Source of the DNA: Bradyrhizobium erythrophlei
GTDB taxonomy: Bacteria > Pseudomonadota > Alphaproteobacteria > Rhizobiales > Xanthobacteraceae
DNA: 64,000 nt
Direction: 5' to 3'
NCBI RefSeq assembly: GCF_900142985.1
Contig: NZ_LT670849.1
Coordinates: forward strand, 4,852,501-4,916,500
Every line of letters begins with the position of its first letter. Within the stretch, counting starts at the first letter, position 1. Both the position numbers and the translations under genes were made by a program. Positions 5,958 through 53,503 of the stretch are shown here, in pieces. Under the pieces are notes generated by a model, which was not told where the DNA came from, made no database searches, and worked only from the letters and a program-made list of their open reading frames with translations.

Positions 5958-7013
5958 ATGCAGCGGATGATCGAGAATTTGCGGATCGGTCCCTATGCGA
6001 TGCGCTACAGCGTGTTTGTCCCCCGCCTTTATAACCTTTGCCGTTCCCTTGGCTTTGAGCGCCACCGCATGCTGCCGTCGCGGGCGTTTTGTTCGGACGA
6101 AGGCCAGGGTTATCCGGTCATCCTGATTGCCCAGCATTTCGGCACCTTTCCATTCGACCACGGCCGCGTCGGCGGCAAGGTATCCATCAACCGCCACGGT
6201 CCTTACGCGAACCATGGCGAGGACCTCGTCATCATCCAGGCGAGCCATGTCGGCTATGACGCCGATTCCGGCCGCTTCGGCGTCTATATGCGCGAGCGCA
6301 CCGACGGCTGTGGTTTCGGCTCCAATTGCGGCAAGCTGGCTGCGGTGCTGCACTGGTATCACGACGAATACAAAGCTGCGCGCGAGCTCATTCGTTTTGG
6401 CCGTCTCGACGGCGAACAGGTCGTCTATCTCGACAATCAATATCTCGACGACAAACGTTCGGAAGGCCTGTTTCCGAAACTCGATCTCCTGGTCGAGGGC
6501 TCTTCCGATCCCGTGCGCGCGCTCGCGACCTCAAAGGCGTTTCGCGCCTCGAAGAATTTGCGCGAGCACCTCGGCGCCGACCAGTGGCGGGATGAATCGC
6601 AGGCCTTGGGAGAACACCTCAACGCCGATCTCTTCACCTTCCAGCGGCAACTGTCCCGCGACCCCGAAGAGCATGACATCCTGGAGCAGGAGCTGCTGCC
6701 GGCGATGCCGGCGCTGGTGACCTCGGCGAATCCCGCGCTCGATGCGGCGCGCTTCGTGACGCAAGTCGAATTCGATCGCTGCTACCGCAGCATTCTGCGC
6801 GAGCCGGCCTATTACGGAAAGAATCTTTTGTTCATTTCCGGCGTCAATATCGATGTCTCGCCGCGCTCGAGCTTTCCGTTTCCGCTGATCAAGTTCGTGC
6901 CGTGGGCCGCCTATGCTGCCTTGCGCGACGGCCGCAAGTTCCTGCTCGAACAGGCTGAACGAACAACTGCGAAGTCAGCCGGCGGAAAATCCGGATCGGT
7001 TGTCGTTCGATGA
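5958..7013 (+). CDS. LCIB/LCIC-like carbonic anhydrase family protein (putative)
   Basis: A 352-residue soluble protein. I see the pattern of the limiting-CO2-inducible B/C family, whose enzymes hold zinc with Cys, Asp, His and Cys like type II beta-carbonic anhydrases. Here Cys45-x-Asp47-Glu48 sits in RAFCSDEGQG; glycines follow in GRVGGK; His80, His86 and His97 lie in NRHGPYANHG and QASHVGYD; then GRFGVYMRER and Cys118/Cys124 in TDGCGFGSNCGK. The C-terminal half (from about 180) is helical and unfamiliar. The start at ATG 5958 has GGGGG upstream; the open frame reaching 4731 is antisense to ppk2 and is not used. Family assignment is by motif memory only, and catalysis is inference. Confidence 0.55.
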   Translation: MQRMIENLRIGPYAMRYSVFVPRLYNLCRSLGFERHRMLPSRAFCSDEGQGYPVILIAQHFGTFPFDHGRVGGKVSINRHGPYANHGEDLVIIQASHVGYDADSGRFGVYMRERTDGCGFGSNCGKLAAVLHWYHDEYKAARELIRFGRLDGEQVVYLDNQYLDDKRSEGLFPKLDLLVEGSSDPVRALATSKAFRASKNLREHLGADQWRDESQALGEHLNADLFTFQRQLSRDPEEHDILEQELLPAMPALVTSANPALDAARFVTQVEFDRCYRSILREPAYYGKNLLFISGVNIDVSPRSSFPFPLIKFVPWAAYAALRDGRKFLLEQAERTTAKSAGGKSGSVVVR

Positions 7014-9287: not shown

Positions 9288-10598
9288 CTACTCGAACAGC
9301 TGCGTCACCGCAAAGATGATCAGCCCGACCAGGCCGCCGACGAGCGTGCCGTTGATGCGGATATATTGCAGGTCGCGCCCCACAGTGAGCTCGATACGCT
9401 CGGTCAGCGTCTCCGTGTCCCAATTCTCGACCACCTTGCGGATGAATTCGGCGATTTCCTTGCGCCGCGGCGCCACCGTGCGCAGCACCGCGACGCGAAG
9501 CCAGCGGTTGATGCCGGTGCGGAAGTTGTCGTCGTTCTGAATTCGCGTCCCCAAGCCGGTCAGCAGACGCTCGATGACTCTTGTCAATTGTGCCTGCGTC
9601 TCCGGCGCTTCGAGGCGGTTTTCGATCGACACCCAGAGCCCGTCGATCTGCCCGATCACCGCGGGCGTTGCGAGCAGTTTGGCTTTCAGCTCTTCGCCCT
9701 TTTCGATCATTTCGGGTTTGGTGGCGAGATCACCGATCAACTCCTCGATGGTTGTCGTCATCTCGATCCGCCAGGGGTGGCTCGGCTCGCGCATTTCTTC
9801 GAGAATCCGCAACACGCCGTCGATGATCTTGTCGGCCACGATGCCGTCGATCCATTTCGGGATCAGACGCGAGGTGCGCCTGGATACCTTGTCGCGGAGC
9901 GTCTCGCGGTTATTCGCCAGCGTCGTAGAGGCCCAGTCGAGAAGTCTTTCGGCGAGCGCCTGCATTTCGCCGTGGGCCCACAGAAGCGACAGCACCTTTG
10001 AGGCGAAAGCAGAGGCCGGAATGCGCTCGATGCCGCCGCGCACCGCGCTGCTCAAAAAAGCATTAAGGTCCTCGCGCGGCAGCGCCGACAGCGCCTGGTT
10101 GAGGGACGAGGTCGCGCGCTGCGCCACGTTCTTGGCGTTGTCGCCGCGCATCAGCCAGCGCCCGACCCAGCCACCGATGTCGACGTCGCGGATGCGCTCG
10201 GCCAGCACCCGCGGCGAAAGGAAATTGTTGGCCATGAAACGGCCGATCGCGACCCCAATGCGCTCCTTGCTGTTGGCGACGATTGCGGTATGAGGAATCG
10301 GAATGCCGAGCGGATGGCGAAACAGCGCCACCACGGCAAACCAGTCGGCGCTGGCGCCGATCATGCCGGCCTCGGCAAACGCCCTGACATAAGCGAGCCA
10401 CGGCCAGTCCTTCATCCAGACCGAGGTCGCGACAAAGATCACCAGCATCAGGACGAGCAGCGAGGTCGCAAAGGTGCGCGCCTGGCGCAGCGCCTGCCGG
10501 CGCTCTTCCATGCTGCCGCCCGCGACCGCGATCCGGCTCGGCCGCGGTTTCGCTTCGGGCGGTTTCGTTTCAGGAGGTGCTAGATCAGGAGACCGCAT
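9288..10598 (-). CDS. DUF445 family membrane protein (YjiN-like)
   Basis: A 436-residue protein. After a Pro-rich cytosolic start (PETKPPEAKPRPS) it has a transmembrane helix around residues 44-64 (ATSLLVLMLVIFVATSVWM), then the DUF445 signature AEAGMIGASADWFAVVALFR followed by HPLGIPIPHTAIV. A long helical region follows, and a C-terminal membrane anchor is formed by NGTLVGGLVGLIIFAVTQLF. Family members have two anchors with a large helical domain between them, of unknown function. The gene is single; its 5' side holds an R1 repeat. There is no clear Shine-Dalgarno at ATG 10598, so an internal ATG (MEERRQ) is possible. Confidence 0.88.
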   Translation of the reverse strand: MRSPDLAPPETKPPEAKPRPSRIAVAGGSMEERRQALRQARTFATSLLVLMLVIFVATSVWMKDWPWLAYVRAFAEAGMIGASADWFAVVALFRHPLGIPIPHTAIVANSKERIGVAIGRFMANNFLSPRVLAERIRDVDIGGWVGRWLMRGDNAKNVAQRATSSLNQALSALPREDLNAFLSSAVRGGIERIPASAFASKVLSLLWAHGEMQALAERLLDWASTTLANNRETLRDKVSRRTSRLIPKWIDGIVADKIIDGVLRILEEMREPSHPWRIEMTTTIEELIGDLATKPEMIEKGEELKAKLLATPAVIGQIDGLWVSIENRLEAPETQAQLTRVIERLLTGLGTRIQNDDNFRTGINRWLRVAVLRTVAPRRKEIAEFIRKVVENWDTETLTERIELTVGRDLQYIRINGTLVGGLVGLIIFAVTQLFE

Positions 10599-10623
10599 TG
10601 GGTTTTGGGGCTAGTGTCAAAGC

Positions 10624-10725
10624 CCTCATCCTGAGGAGCGCGCGTTGCGCGCGTCTCGAAGGATGTAGGCCCGTCTGAGGCCTCAGGGTTCGAGACGCCG
10701 CTTCGCGGCTCCTCACCATGAGGGT
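10624..10725. repeat. R1 palindromic repeat, short form
   Basis: Starts CCTCATCCTGAGGAGCGCG and ends GGCTCCTCACCATGAGG, with GTCTCGAAGGATG and GGTTCGAGACG inside. It fills most of the gap between the DUF445 and EcsC-like genes and lacks the longer inner module. Confidence 0.9.
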
Positions 10726-10764
10726 TGGGACATAGTAAGGCTGGCGAATGTCAAATCTACTCCA

Positions 10765-11574
10765 CTAGGGGGCAGAGAGTTCAGCATATCGCTGCTTAAT
10801 ATGGGAGCTGCCATAGATACGTTCCAGTCGCCGCAGCGTAAAGTGGGCGTGGGCGACCCGCTGGAAATGGTCCATGAACACGATATTGACCGTGGCGCCA
10901 CCGACCGCGCCGATGATCGGCAGCGCGCCGGCGGCGACCTTGTCGGAAACCACGAGACCAAAGCGCGAGACGATTTCGCTGACGAGGCTTGCGACCACCG
11001 GCGCCGACGCGTCGATCGCGCCGCGTTCCAGCGCCAGCGCTGCGATATCGTGGGTGTATTTGCTGATCAGCGCGCGCGCTGCGTAGTAGCCGACGTCGAG
11101 ATTGTCCTCGTTGCGCTTGGCGCCGTAGGCAAACACTTCGAGACAGGCGAGGCGCGCTTCCAAGGTGGAGAGGTCTTCGCCCTGGTGCTGGGCGATTTCG
11201 GCAATCGCGCGCAGCATCAAGGTCGTGGTCAGCGGCAGTTCGACCGCGAGCGCGCCGAAGCCGAACAATCCGCTGACGCCGCCTGTGACGCCGGCGAGGA
11301 ATGACGAAAATCCCGTCGAAGGCGAGCGCGGCGGTTTCTCGTCGAGCGTATCGACGGCGACTTCGAGCCCCTTCAGCACCGCCGTGCGCACCGCGCCGGA
11401 GAGCTGCTTGTTCAGCGCCTTGGGCAGAAAGCCGAGCACGCGATGGATGGGCACGCCGGCATAGTCGGCGAGGCGGGCGGCGAAGTTCCGCCCCTCCAGG
11501 TATTTGACCGCCTTTTGCAAGGCGGCGTGGTCGGCCGTGGAGATCGTGGTGGCGAGGGCGGCCGGGCCGTTCAT
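10765..11574 (-). CDS. EcsC family protein, last gene of metal/membrane cluster
   Basis: A 269-residue protein matching the EcsC family: FLAGVTGGVSGLFGFGALAV followed by ELPLTTTLMLRAIAEIA, then LEVFAYG, and a glycine-rich LPIIGAVGGATVNIVFMDHF. It has amphipathic or partly membrane-embedded helices. EcsC-like proteins are little understood. The ATG overlaps the TGA of the P-type ATPase gene (ATGA), so the two are translationally coupled and probably act together. The longer frame open to 12003 is antisense-frame noise over the ATPase gene. Its job in metal handling or membrane remodelling is inference from the coupling. Confidence 0.85.
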   Translation of the reverse strand: MNGPAALATTISTADHAALQKAVKYLEGRNFAARLADYAGVPIHRVLGFLPKALNKQLSGAVRTAVLKGLEVAVDTLDEKPPRSPSTGFSSFLAGVTGGVSGLFGFGALAVELPLTTTLMLRAIAEIAQHQGEDLSTLEARLACLEVFAYGAKRNEDNLDVGYYAARALISKYTHDIAALALERGAIDASAPVVASLVSEIVSRFGLVVSDKVAAGALPIIGAVGGATVNIVFMDHFQRVAHAHFTLRRLERIYGSSHIKQRYAELSAP

Positions 11575-13685
11575 TGGTACCGTAGCATCGGCCGGACGCC
11601 GTTGGCGCTTGCCAGGATCGCCGAACCGTTGGAGATGAGCGCGGTGACTTCCGGTGTGATCAATCCGCCCGGCAGCGCCAGCCCGAGCGCGATGGCGTTG
11701 AGCGTGGCGACGATCGCATAGTTCTGCCTGATCAGAGAGACCGCGCCGCGCGAAATCTCGACCGCCTGCACGAGCTTCCACAGCGAATCTTCCATCAGCA
11801 CGACGTCGGCGGATTCGTGCGTGACTTCGGCGCCGTGCTTCATGGCGATGCCGACATCGGCAAAACTCAGGGCCGGCGAGTCGTTGATGCCGTCGCCGAC
11901 CATGGCGACGCGGCGGCCTTGACGCTGCAAATCCTGGATCACGCTCGCCTTGTCCGCGGGCAGCATGTCCGCAAAGTGCCGCGTCAGCCCGATGTCGTTG
12001 CACACCGCACGCGCGACCACGGCGTTGTCGCCGGTCAGCATGATGGTGTTCTTGATGCCCATCTCGTGCAGCTTCCGGATCACCTGCCGGCTCTCGTCGC
12101 GAATCTTGTCGGAATAGGGAACAAGCCCGGCAAGGTCGCCGTCGACCGCGATATAGAGGCTCGAAAAGCCCTTTTCATCGAGGCCGGCGCGGTCGATCAC
12201 GGATTTATCGGTCGAGATGTTGCATTGGCGCATGAAGCGCTCGTTGCCGACATGGACGTCATAGCCGTTGACCTGGCCCTCGACCCCGAGCCCAAGCCGG
12301 TATTGCGTCTCGTGGCAGGGCGGGACATTGACGCCAAGTTCGCGCGCCCGGCTGCGCAGCGCTTCGGCAACCGGGTGCTGAAGCTTGGTTTCGGCGGCGG
12401 CCGCCAGTCCGAGCAGATGGTTCGGCGTGATGTGGTTCTGATAGGACAGCACATCGATGACGGCGGGCGTGCCGTGCGTCAGCGTGCCGGTCTTGTCGAA
12501 GACCACGGTGTCGATGTCGGCGAGCTTTTCCATGTGGCCGCCGCTCTTGATGATCATGCCGGAGCGCGCCGCATGCGTCATCGAGGCCAGCACCGATGTC
12601 GGCGCCGCGACGCGGATGCCGGTGCCGAAGTCGACGATCACAAGCGACAGGAAGCGGTTGAAGTCGCCGGTCACGGCCGCGGTGCCGGCGGCGAGCGCCA
12701 GTGTCGGCGCCACCAGGCCATCGGCAAAACGCTCGGCATGGTTCTGCATGCGGGTGTCGCCGATCGGCGCGCTTTCGACCAGACGAACGATTTGCCCGGC
12801 GGTGGTGGCAGTGCCGACGCGCAAGCTGCGGATGGTGATCTGGCCTTCGCGGATCACGGTCGCGGCAAAGGCGGCTTCGCCTTTGGAACGCGAGACCGGC
12901 AGGCCTTCGCCGGTGATGGTCTTCTGGTCGATGGTGGCCTGGCCGTCGATGATCTCGCCATCGACCGGGATCATCTCGCCCGGATAGACGACGACGAGAT
13001 CGTCGACCTTCAACTCGGTTGCCGGGATCTGCACCACCTGGCCGTCGCACAACAGCCAGGCGGTCCTGGTCTGGAATTCCAGGAGTTCGCTGATCGCGCG
13101 TTTCTGGCCCGCCGCGGTCAGATCGCGGATCCAGTCGCCGAGCTTGATCAGCCAGGTGACGATGCACCCCGCAAGCGGATTGCCTTGCAGCATCGAGGCT
13201 GAGATCGCGAGCGTGTCGAGCACGTCGATATTGAGCCGGCTCTCGTTCGACCACACCTTCCAGGCGCGTCTGGCGATCGGGATCGCATTCCACAGCATCA
13301 ACGGCGTGTTGATGGCCATGACGACGGGATTGGCGGAAAACGCCATCAGCAGCGAAAGCGTGGGCAGCGCCAGCGGCGCGTCCTTGGAAATCACCGGCGT
13401 CGTCGGCTTCGATGACGCTTCGGGCGGAGCTTGCGTGGCGCAGAGCGCCTTGATCTCGGCAAGGCTCAAGCTCTTGAAGCGTTCGAGCTGCGCCATCAGC
13501 AGCGGCTCATGAACGGGATCGTACTCGATCACGAGGCTTGCGCAGTCGTAATTGATGCGTGCGGTGCGAACGCCCGACTGCCCGCCGAGCCAGCCGAGAA
13601 ATTTTCCGCCGAGACGCCGATCGCGAAGCGCCGGAACGGTGAGTCTCGCCCGTCCCCTCATCAGATGTCGGATCGAACATTCCAT
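11571..13685 (-). CDS. P1B-type heavy-metal ATPase lacking the CPC motif (ferrosome FezB-like candidate)
   Basis: A 704-residue P-type ATPase. Intact core motifs are TGE (258-260), DKTGTLT with phospho-Asp397, the HP locus at 437-438 and GDGINDSPAL (597-606). Residues 1-57 look like an HMA-type fold without CxxC, carrying H-x3-GR-x-RL-x-VP. The membrane metal site is unusual: where most P1B pumps have CPC before the phosphorylation domain, this one reads VDFGTGIRVAAPTS (351-364), so Cys-Pro-Cys becomes Phe-Gly-Thr. It therefore probably does not move Cu(I) or Zn by the usual thiol route. The gene order with HMA2-like, DUF5132-like and EcsC-like proteins recalls iron-loading P1B-6 pumps of ferrosomes; that is inference. 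Confidence 0.92.
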   Translation of the reverse strand: MECSIRHLMRGRARLTVPALRDRRLGGKFLGWLGGQSGVRTARINYDCASLVIEYDPVHEPLLMAQLERFKSLSLAEIKALCATQAPPEASSKPTTPVISKDAPLALPTLSLLMAFSANPVVMAINTPLMLWNAIPIARRAWKVWSNESRLNIDVLDTLAISASMLQGNPLAGCIVTWLIKLGDWIRDLTAAGQKRAISELLEFQTRTAWLLCDGQVVQIPATELKVDDLVVVYPGEMIPVDGEIIDGQATIDQKTITGEGLPVSRSKGEAAFAATVIREGQITIRSLRVGTATTAGQIVRLVESAPIGDTRMQNHAERFADGLVAPTLALAAGTAAVTGDFNRFLSLVIVDFGTGIRVAAPTSVLASMTHAARSGMIIKSGGHMEKLADIDTVVFDKTGTLTHGTPAVIDVLSYQNHITPNHLLGLAAAAETKLQHPVAEALRSRARELGVNVPPCHETQYRLGLGVEGQVNGYDVHVGNERFMRQCNISTDKSVIDRAGLDEKGFSSLYIAVDGDLAGLVPYSDKIRDESRQVIRKLHEMGIKNTIMLTGDNAVVARAVCNDIGLTRHFADMLPADKASVIQDLQRQGRRVAMVGDGINDSPALSFADVGIAMKHGAEVTHESADVVLMEDSLWKLVQAVEISRGAVSLIRQNYAIVATLNAIALGLALPGGLITPEVTALISNGSAILASANGVRPMLRYQ

Positions 13686-13709
13686 GGAGTCGTGATCTCG
13701 CCGCCCACC

Positions 13710-13788
13710 CTAGTACCGCCTATTAGAAGTTCCTGCACCACAAGCGGCAAATTCGATCCAGGAACTTCAAATAGGGAAGCGGTACTAG
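13710..13788. repeat. CTAG-ended palindromic element A
   Basis: Imperfect inverted repeat of 79 bases. The left arm is CTAGTACCGCC..GAAGTTCCTG; the right arm, read on the other strand, is CTAGTACCGCTTCCC..GAAGTTCCTG. It lies directly beside element B, between the HMA2-like and ATPase genes. Confidence 0.85.
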
Positions 13789-13802
13789 AATCAATAAGTT
13801 TG

Positions 13803-13878
13803 CTAGTGCCCATGACTTTCCGAAGTTCGTGACGGTGGGTGCTGCAAGGGAGCACGAACTTCGGAAAGTGGGCACTAG
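13803..13878. repeat. CTAG-ended palindromic element B
   Basis: Imperfect inverted repeat of 76 bases with arms CTAGTGCCCA..CTTTCCGAAGTTCGTG on both strands; the left arm has three extra bases. It shares the plan CTAGTRCC...GAAGTTCSTG with element A. A degenerate relative lies at 51517-51578. Confidence 0.85.
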
Positions 13879-13895
13879 TCGATCAGTCAATGCGA

Positions 13896-14483
13896 TCAGG
13901 CGGGTGCGAGAATCTCCTCTTCTTCTTCCGGATCTTCATCGGCCGCACGCGCGGCCTCGGCCATACCGGCTTGAATCATATGGTTGAGCGCAAAGATCGA
14001 AATCGTGACCCACACGGGCGTTGCGGCGCTGGCGCCGACCTCGAAAATGGTGAAACCGGCAATGCCCAAAGCGAGCACGATCTTCAGATCGACGACGTTT
14101 CCGGTCGCAAGTTTAATGCCTTCATCGAAATGCCTGAAGTAATCGACGATGACGCGGGCGGTGTGGGAATGCTCGGCGAGATATTCGGCTTCCTGCTCGA
14201 TCTTGCTGGCGAGCGCGTCGATCTCGTTGGTCGGGGGCCGCTCGTGGCCGCCGGTGTGATGCTTCTCGAGGTGGCCGTGGAAGGCGTCGTGATGATCGGT
14301 GTCGTAGCGCAGCACCACGCTGCCGGTGGTCGGGTTGACCGTGACTTCCTCGATGCCCGGGATCGCATTGAACATCTGCTTGATCTGGTCGACCAGCTCC
14401 GGGCTCTCTTTCACGCCGGGCACTTTGAGCCGAACGCGGCCAGGGACCTGATGGGCAACTTGCACGTTCATGGTCGTCGGCAT
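13896..14483 (-). CDS. HMA2-like domain membrane protein
   Basis: A 195-residue protein. Residues 5-65 form a ferredoxin-like HMA2 domain starting HQVPGRVRLKVPGV and ending TGSVVLRYD; there is no CxxC, and His residues cluster just after (DTDHHDAFHGHLEKHHTGGH), a possible metal site. Two hydrophobic segments near 130-172 (VVDLKIVLALGIAGFTIFEV, TPVWVTISIFALNHMI) suggest a membrane hairpin, and the tail is acidic (DEDPEEEEEI). The H-x3-GR-x-RL-x-VP motif is shared with the ATPase N-terminus. It lies upstream of the ATPase gene and downstream of the DUF5132-like gene on the same strand. A role in delivering metal to the pump is inference. Confidence 0.82.
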   Translation of the reverse strand: MPTTMNVQVAHQVPGRVRLKVPGVKESPELVDQIKQMFNAIPGIEEVTVNPTTGSVVLRYDTDHHDAFHGHLEKHHTGGHERPPTNEIDALASKIEQEAEYLAEHSHTARVIVDYFRHFDEGIKLATGNVVDLKIVLALGIAGFTIFEVGASAATPVWVTISIFALNHMIQAGMAEAARAADEDPEEEEEILAPA

Positions 14484-14532
14484 GGCTCAAGCTCTCATCC
14501 GGGAAAGCCCGAAGGCAGGTCCAAAGCCCCGA

Positions 14533-14898
14533 TCAGGCCGTGTGACGATCCGCGTCCTTTGCGGCGGTCTCGGCCTCGGCCTTCGCTTCGGCCACGGCGT
14601 CATGCACGTGCTCGCGCGCCTCGTGGAACATTTCCTTGGACTTCTGGGCGAGCTTGTAGGTGCCGCGAACCGTCGACTTGAACAGCGGGTTCAGCGCGCC
14701 GCCGAGTTTCGGAAGGTATTTCGGGGCGGCGACAGCGGCGGCGCCGAGCGCAATGCCCGGCAAAAGGGCAACCTCGAACAATGCAGCGCCCACAGCGACC
14801 ACGGCTACCGCGGCAACCGCCTTGCCGACCACGCCATCTTCGTGGGCCTGCGACGGGGTCTCTTCGGAAAACGAAGCGTGCCCATTACCAGCCGTCAT
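14533..14898 (-). CDS. DUF5132-like hydrophobic protein, first gene of metal cluster
   Basis: A 121-residue protein starting MTAGNGHASFSEETPSQAHE; GGAAGGA precedes ATG 14898, which is preferred over the longer frame to 14955. Residues 25-65 are a Gly/Ala/Val membrane stretch (VGKAVAAVAVVAVGAALFEV, then LLPGIALGAAAVAAP), followed by PKYLPKLGGALNPLFKSTVR and a charged helical tail rich in Ala, Glu and His. That plan matches DUF5132 proteins found beside HMA2 proteins and P-type ATPases, and recalls hydrophobic Ala/Gly proteins of ferrosome or magnetosome loci. The exact family is uncertain. No metal-binding motif beyond scattered His. Confidence 0.72.
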   Translation of the reverse strand: MTAGNGHASFSEETPSQAHEDGVVGKAVAAVAVVAVGAALFEVALLPGIALGAAAVAAPKYLPKLGGALNPLFKSTVRGTYKLAQKSKEMFHEAREHVHDAVAEAKAEAETAAKDADRHTA

Positions 14899-15126
14899 TG
14901 TACCAGTCCTTCCATGTTGGACCACATAAGCAATGTCCATTGCATAAAAGCTCAATTAGAAGGGTAAGTGACAGTTTCATGACACCTCTAAAACGGCGTG
15001 CGCGCTTCGCTCGCCAAACTTTTGATTTGTTTCAAAAAATGACGATGCTGCCGCCGGCACGGAGCAGCCATACGGCTGGCGGATTTGCCGCTCGCGACAT
15101 CCGGATCTGAAACTTGAGGCCGGCTT

Positions 15127-53257: not shown

Positions 53258-53503
53258 CGCCGCCTCTCTCGTCTGAAATTGTCGGTTGAAAAAGCCGAGA
53301 GCATTTTCTCGCCGTTTCGTCACAGCGGCGTGACAGCAGGATATTCGTCACAACGACGTGACATCCGTGCCAGAGCCTTGTGAATCAAGCACTTGGCTGC
53401 CGGCCGAGGATGATGCGCCCCTGTTTCCCACGGCTGGCTGGGCGCGCTATGGTAGTCGGCTATGGGGTCGGCCCATTTTGATGGCTAGGGGGAGTTTTCA
53501 TCG

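Follow-up and report, generated by a model that had tools for sequence, protein, structure and literature searches.

Ferrosomes and the mycobacterial efflux platforms are the described systems closest to the subject of this report, an operon for a P1B-type ATPase and its partner proteins in Bradyrhizobium erythrophlei, a soil relative of the root-nodule symbionts. The operon lies in what we call the window, the whole 64,000-nucleotide stretch that was analysed (contig NZ_LT670849.1, positions 4,852,501 to 4,916,500). In P1B-6 pumps, among them FezB of the ferrosome (fez) loci, the motif of transmembrane helix 4 (TM4) is SPC. An HN pair in TM6 is a further P1B-6 feature (PMC9374683; here and below, PMC numbers refer to excerpts of the papers). 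The initial annotation of the locus mentioned fez genes in Rhodopseudomonas palustris, and strain CGA009 indeed carries six, RPA2333-2338 (PMC12016538), while FezC, described for Desulfovibrio, is a DUF4405-like cytochrome (PMC10979944). In the mycobacterial PacL-CtpC platforms (effluxosomes), PacL combines a transmembrane segment with Glu/Ala repeats and stabilises the pump CtpC (PMC9374683, PMC13043812).

The operon shares with P1B-6/fez loci a pump with an HMA_2-like N-terminus bearing H-x3-GR-x-R, a separate HMA_2 partner and a small membrane protein, and its pump belongs to a sister clade. It differs from them in the pump itself (GTGIR in TM4 and SN in TM6, against SCALK and HN), in the addition of EcsC, DUF445 and a Pho box, and in that no FezC-like cytochrome was detected among the seven window proteins scanned, the rest of the genome not having been searched for FezC. 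As in the PacL-CtpC platforms, a Glu/Ala-rich protein with one transmembrane segment is encoded with a P1B-6-like pump (PMC9374683). However, the DUF5132 protein of the operon matches neither DUF1490 nor DUF6110, and CtpC has CPC and HN in a zinc-linked system (PMC9374683), whereas the operon is linked to phosphate. We tentatively propose, with a little less than even confidence, that this is a PhoB-controlled five-gene operon that may make a membrane cation-pump platform, derived from P1B-6, for phosphate starvation.

A conserved five-gene operon

Four minus-strand genes had initially been annotated between 10765 and 14898. Profile searches recovered all four with the domains stated, including the PF19991 match of the HMA_2 protein that the annotation proposed to look for. 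The four-gene extent was incomplete, since a DUF445 gene downstream of EcsC also belongs to the operon:

14968-14985, minus strand: Pho box (predicted PhoB-type site), GTGTCATGAAACTGTCAC, 69 nt upstream of the DUF5132 gene
14533-14898, minus strand: DUF5132 gene (PF17195, E 9.7e-9)
13896-14483, minus strand: HMA_2 gene (PF19991, E 3.3e-17)
11571-13685, minus strand: P1B-type ATPase gene (PF00122, E 2.2e-36; TIGR01525, E 2.8e-151)
10765-11574, minus strand: EcsC-family membrane protein gene (PF12787, E 5.3e-26)
9288-10598, minus strand: DUF445 gene, the fifth operon member (PF04286, E 5e-105)

The ATPase stop and the EcsC start overlap as ATGA, in line with the translational coupling first suggested, and 40 of 48 relatives likewise have ATGA where the ATPase gene ends. 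The genes of these relatives were called with a home-made caller, and five-gene presence was recounted by tblastn. By that count 35 of the 48 loci, which come from Alpha-, Beta- and Gammaproteobacteria, have all five genes in the same order, and singly the ATPase is found in 48, EcsC in 45, DUF5132 in 43, HMA_2 in 42 and DUF445 in 38. EcsC, which had been put forward as an extra member, is thus a conserved one. Several of the loci short of five genes end at contig ends; DUF445 is absent despite ample DNA in others, such as L085, L105 and L108 (L numbers are our handles for loci). As the cluster is conserved over three proteobacterial classes, it is not a matter of chance, and its five-gene composition is well supported by these comparisons.

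In relatives, the EcsC-DUF445 and HMA_2-ATPase gaps are mostly short, with medians near 15 and 30 nt. Both hold a dispersed repeat in B. erythrophlei:

13710-13879, no strand: dispersed ~170-bp repeat, itself containing inverted repeats, in the HMA_2-ATPase gap
10623-10726: palindromic repeat of ~100 bp, dispersed in tens of copies, in the EcsC-DUF445 gap

The first has at least 40 genome copies (one partial) with 77-93% identity to the operon copy. It is an insertion and lies outside the system; the corresponding gap in L075 is 26 nt. The second accounts for the 166-nt gap between EcsC and DUF445.

A Pho box upstream of the operon

A repeated TGTCA element was first seen on aligning Bradyrhizobium upstream regions. 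The site in the window has one mismatch to CTGTCAY-N4-CTGTCAY, the Pho box consensus given alike in PMC3465305 and PMC3131613, and its position is conserved in many relatives of several genera. This pattern (14 positions) was scored over 400 nt upstream in 43 of 49 operons, window included, namely those in which the called DUF5132 gene lies at least 150 nt from a contig end; the upstreams of 400 other genes in the same loci served as controls. A site with at most three mismatches was found in 31/43 operons, against 30/400 controls and ~3% of shuffles, and one with at most two in 23/43 against 7/400. The Bradyrhizobium copies, window included, all pass (21/21), as do 10 of the 22 operons outside the genus (binomial P 1.6e-6). 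By comparison, the site was present in 0/4 fez-cluster-like loci and in 1/3 loci of the M clade introduced below.

In the B. erythrophlei genome, a single 7.525-Mb contig, 12 sites fall within one mismatch of the pattern, and the reversed pattern gives 3. Such sites precede pstS and phnC (both over NCBIfam cut-offs), a phosphodiesterase-family gene and a phasin gene. The boxes of pstS and phnC are thus of the same kind as that of the operon, but the products of these genes serve uptake and phosphonate functions and form no pump platform. Phosphate genes also adjoin the operon elsewhere: at L036 (same record as L094) PhoU is its convergent neighbour and PhnN and PhnM lie close by, and PstS lies near it at L091 and L105. 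No Fur/Irr iron box was found upstream by the simple patterns tried.

Several observations weigh against control by PhoB. The remaining 12/43 operons, all outside Bradyrhizobium, have no site at three mismatches or fewer, one of them (L104) having been scored before a downstream DUF5132 copy, and the site in L108, one of the 10 passes outside the genus, is at an implausible distance. The motif had been recognised in these same upstreams before scoring, so that the test was not blind; the Bradyrhizobium loci are not independent of each other, and true promoters are lacking in many of the 400 control upstreams. Other genomic sites with at most one mismatch precede GGDEF, aminotransferase, MFS, HTH, alpha/beta-hydrolase and further genes with no known phosphate role.

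The 12 operons without a good site are what would be expected if the Pho box were incidental and the operon an ordinary metal efflux system. The conserved position of the site in several genera, its enrichment over the 400 controls and the Pho genes that adjoin the operon in three lineages all argue against this explanation, and we regard it as improbable. A Pho box that is both upstream and conserved in relatives, 12/43 operons excepted, places the operon in the Pho regulon by prediction. The promoter motif is well supported by sequence, and phosphate starvation appears to turn the operon on.

Two other motifs were seen in the window. A perfect FixK/Fnr-like palindrome, TTGAAACAAATCAA, stands at 15022-15035 upstream of DUF5132 and is not conserved in relatives. 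A second Pho-box-like site with one mismatch lies at 53319-53336, upstream of a gene for a 284-aa alpha/beta-hydrolase-like protein.

The pump belongs to a distinct P1B-derived clade

The catalytic motifs reported at the outset (TGE, DKTGTLT, GDGIND) are all present in the ATPase, and with TIGR01525 at 505 bits against a cut-off of 346 it is of P1B type. Equally borne out is the replacement of CPC by F353-G354-T355: TM4 reads V-D352-F-G-T-G-I-R358-V-A-A-P where Cu pumps have IACPCALGLATP. The N-terminal HMA_2-like stretch, which matches PF19991 at 0.0042, below the family cut-off, has no CxxC, as had been said. The pattern H-x3-GR-x-RL-x-VP is common to the HMA_2 protein and the ATPase, as claimed, but is not specific to them. 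Among the matches listed, to which all counts out of 120 refer, H-x3-GR-x-R[LMI] occurs in the first 40 residues of 106/120 close homologues and in the first 60 residues of 69/120 DYSCA (P1B-6-like) homologues.

Among the matches listed, D[YF]GTG[IL]RV[AS]AP, without Cys, was found in 120/120 homologues of the ATPase, and TM6 reads SNGSA in 119/120 and HNG[TSA] in 0/120. The DYSCA-type homologues, by contrast, have HNG[TSA] in 118/120 and D[YF]SCALKLATP in 110/120, with the other 10 outside the pattern used. D352 and R358 are retained in 41/41 ATPases of this family longer than 680 aa; in the membrane-helix segments tested in these (residues 95-190, 315-375 and 640-704) no Cys is conserved, and the sole conserved His is H316.

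A tree was built from 52 of 76 collected ATPases, including 21 of 44 from the family of the ATPase and excluding one catalytically dead protein; it contains a few long-branch rows. The ATPase clade (21 rows) has as its sister group another GTGIR clade, the M clade (3 rows), with support 99/98. The P1B-6-like clade (19 rows, mostly with DYSCALK-like TM4 and HN in TM6; support 100/100) was recognised by motifs, no named FezB being among the rows. The fork joining the three clades has support 100/99 and CPC pumps fall outside it, so that the placement in a Cu or Zn clade named beforehand as counter-evidence was not found. M-clade ATPases (GTGIRM type; L038, L039, L105) share D-x-GTGIR-x-AAP in TM4 with the pump but differ in a long N-terminal extension and another TM6, and L038 and L039 give no DUF5132-EcsC-DUF445 match. 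By alignment and tree, the pump and its relatives form a distinct P1B-derived clade that has other residues where the P1B-6-like sisters have their Cys and His ligands, but keeps the catalytic motifs intact.

Two M-clade loci show further features. An 877-aa protein at L038:11005-13638, with E1-E2_ATPase and weak HMA_2 matches and without DKTGT, TGE[SA] or GDGxND, is apparently a catalytically dead P-type ATPase-like partner, divergent from the GTGIRM-type ATPase. At L105:3271-6178, a sister-clade GTGIR-type ATPase and a 110-aa gene are divergent from the operon and share its intergenic region.

Relation to ferrosomes

The initial annotation read the locus as a possible ferrosome-related iron system. 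Its kinship to P1B-6 pumps stands, as the nearest relatives in the tree are P1B-6-like and some have HMA_2 partners. Membership is not supported: the ATPase does not fall within the P1B-6-like clade and has neither the TM6 HN nor the Ser/Cys TM4 motif of that clade, and the box upstream is a Pho box, no iron box being found by the simple patterns tried. Judged by motif and by tree against the P1B-6-like clade, with no named FezB sequence in the comparison, the pump is not of FezB type, and the operon is probably not a ferrosome iron-storage system.

A ferrosome-like device, in which the pump would fill a membrane compartment with Fe(II) and EcsC and DUF445 would be additional components, would still account for the sister relation to pumps clustered in some cases with HMA_2 partners, and for the general arrangement, common to both, of a pump with an HMA_2 protein and a small membrane protein. 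Elsewhere in the B. erythrophlei genome the ATPase matches a CPC pump and pieces of Kdp type; a separate FezB-type pump thus did not turn up, which also favours such a device. It is nevertheless unlikely, given the changes of YSC to FGT/YGT in TM4 and of HN to SN in TM6, the lack of a FezC-like cytochrome in the proteins scanned, the absence of a detectable match between DUF5132 and the one small fez-cluster-like protein compared, and a promoter that has a Pho box and in which the simple patterns tried revealed no Fur/Irr site. Among the collected loci, L040 has a cluster of six genes, among them those for a DYSCALK pump and for an HMA_2 protein; as a lead, its gene number equals that of the R. 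palustris CGA009 fez genes (PMC12016538).

Partner proteins

The DUF5132 protein has a single hydrophobic segment and an Ala/Glu-rich helix. PF17195 matches 20/20 aligned members, whose alignment shows a conserved AEA-x-E...DIVAEV-x-AE, and a Pfam scan of these 20 proteins at E up to 1 found neither DUF1490 nor DUF6110. At L104:3971-4756, where the front of the operon is lost at a contig end, a 261-aa DUF5132-like protein is encoded downstream of DUF445. The HMA_2 protein consists of a Cys-free HMA-like domain and a C-terminal hydrophobic part. In the open-access literature we found no paper on DUF5132 and none on EcsC with phosphate starvation; no such operon appeared among the matches listed, judged by titles and abstract beginnings.

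Two membrane proteins of unknown function behind a phosphate-linked promoter motif could suggest envelope remodelling, in which the ATPase, EcsC and DUF445 would move or sort lipids as phospholipids are replaced in phosphate starvation. We give this little credence: the family models that fit the ATPase best are those of heavy-metal P1B pumps, and the phospholipid-ATPase model matches only weakly.

Carbonic anhydrase neighbours

Past the operon, the window holds an LCIB-like gene:

5958-7013, plus strand: LCIB-type (theta) carbonic-anhydrase-like gene, 351 aa, convergent, 2.3 kb past DUF445

Its protein matches PF18599 at 1.3e-4 and 21.7 bits, below the cut-off of 25; the profile matches 9/13 LCIB-like members (E up to 0.01) and, among the matches listed, 22/120 homologues. 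The gene occurs in 20/265 Bradyrhizobium genomes, all 20 among the 25 that have the ATPase (Fisher P 9e-26, uncorrected for relatedness or linkage), and in 1/385 of the class sample, that one being B. erythrophlei.

The carbonic anhydrases were identified in clusters of called genes, with a Pfam check on one to three members each, and the types covered are LCIB-like and beta. Outside Bradyrhizobium, an LCIB-like homologue lies downstream on the same strand in L100 (17 nt) and L106 (29 nt), divergently upstream in L091 and L092, and near the operon in L105. A beta-type carbonic anhydrase (beta-CA) lies upstream on the same strand in L095 (82 nt) and L111 (113 nt), and no more than about 2 kb away in L090 and L104. 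The clustering showed the two types together at no locus. The B. erythrophlei genome has 2 Pro_CA genes; at that density about 0.1 beta-CAs are expected in the 351 kb of the 28 non-Bradyrhizobium loci, and assuming five per 5 Mb raises this to 0.35.

These neighbours, in 9/28 non-Bradyrhizobium loci and in 20/25 ATPase-bearing Bradyrhizobium genomes, could belong to an acidification module, in which carbonic anhydrase would give protons that a thiol-free ATPase exports, freeing mineral phosphate. The Pho box and the retention of D352 and R358 after loss of the P1B-6 metal ligands would suit it. We consider it rather unlikely, however, as the HMA_2 domains and P1B descent indicate metals, P1B-6-like pumps too carry an Asp and a basic residue at these positions, and clustering found no carbonic anhydrase in 19/28 non-Bradyrhizobium loci (several incomplete) or in the plant symbiont Bradyrhizobium sp. 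BTAi1 (L083). A phosphate-starvation counterpart of the ferrosome can also be imagined, a PhoB-induced compartment or platform where the pump would accumulate a hard cation and carbonic anhydrase would supply bicarbonate or carbonate as counter-ion in place of phosphate; this is very improbable.

Distribution

Of the 48 loci that the scan of species genomes gave, 20 are from Bradyrhizobium; the others come from further Alphaproteobacteria (for example Methylocapsa, Enhydrobacter and Acidisphaera), from Burkholderia and Paraburkholderia, and from one Nevskia metagenome-assembled genome (MAG). The ATPase is accessory within Bradyrhizobium (25/265 genomes). Even sampling turned up the ATPase or a close relative in 3/149 genomes of the family (one partial) and in 2/385 of the class, B. 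erythrophlei counted. At L107:5888-8392, in a Rhodospirillales MAG, an 835-aa Cas9-like protein (HNH_4, RuvC_III) is encoded downstream of EcsC.

Discussion

The conserved operon, its Pho box, the intact catalytic motifs, the clade and the recurrent carbonic anhydrase neighbours can be read from the DNA, and we infer a transport role for the pump. In the PhoB-controlled platform that we tentatively prefer, PhoB would switch the operon on during phosphate starvation. DUF5132 might act, by analogy with PacL, as a scaffold that gathers the pump into clusters and stabilises it, the HMA_2 protein would be an adaptor docking onto the pump's own HMA_2-like domain, and EcsC and DUF445 may be membrane-shaping or accessory parts. 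The pump would export a hard (oxygen-liganded) cation, such as Mn2+, Fe2+, Mg2+ or Ca2+, from the cytoplasm; chemically, the conserved TM4/TM6 residues that are left offer oxygen ligands and one basic group. Export would be needed when the phosphate, polyphosphate and nucleotide pools that hold such cations drop.

To the points already raised about the Pho box, three others must be added on the opposing side. The choice of substrate is one of ligand chemistry; the PacL role is an analogy, as DUF5132 matches neither DUF1490 nor DUF6110; and structure models of EcsC and DUF445 gave no meaningful fold match.

By its conserved Pho box, a distinct clade of P1B-derived pumps is putatively tied to the phosphate starvation response. 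EcsC and DUF445, both of unknown function, and DUF5132 gain a common and testable context, and a testable link is opened between phosphate limitation, cation handling and carbonic anhydrase.

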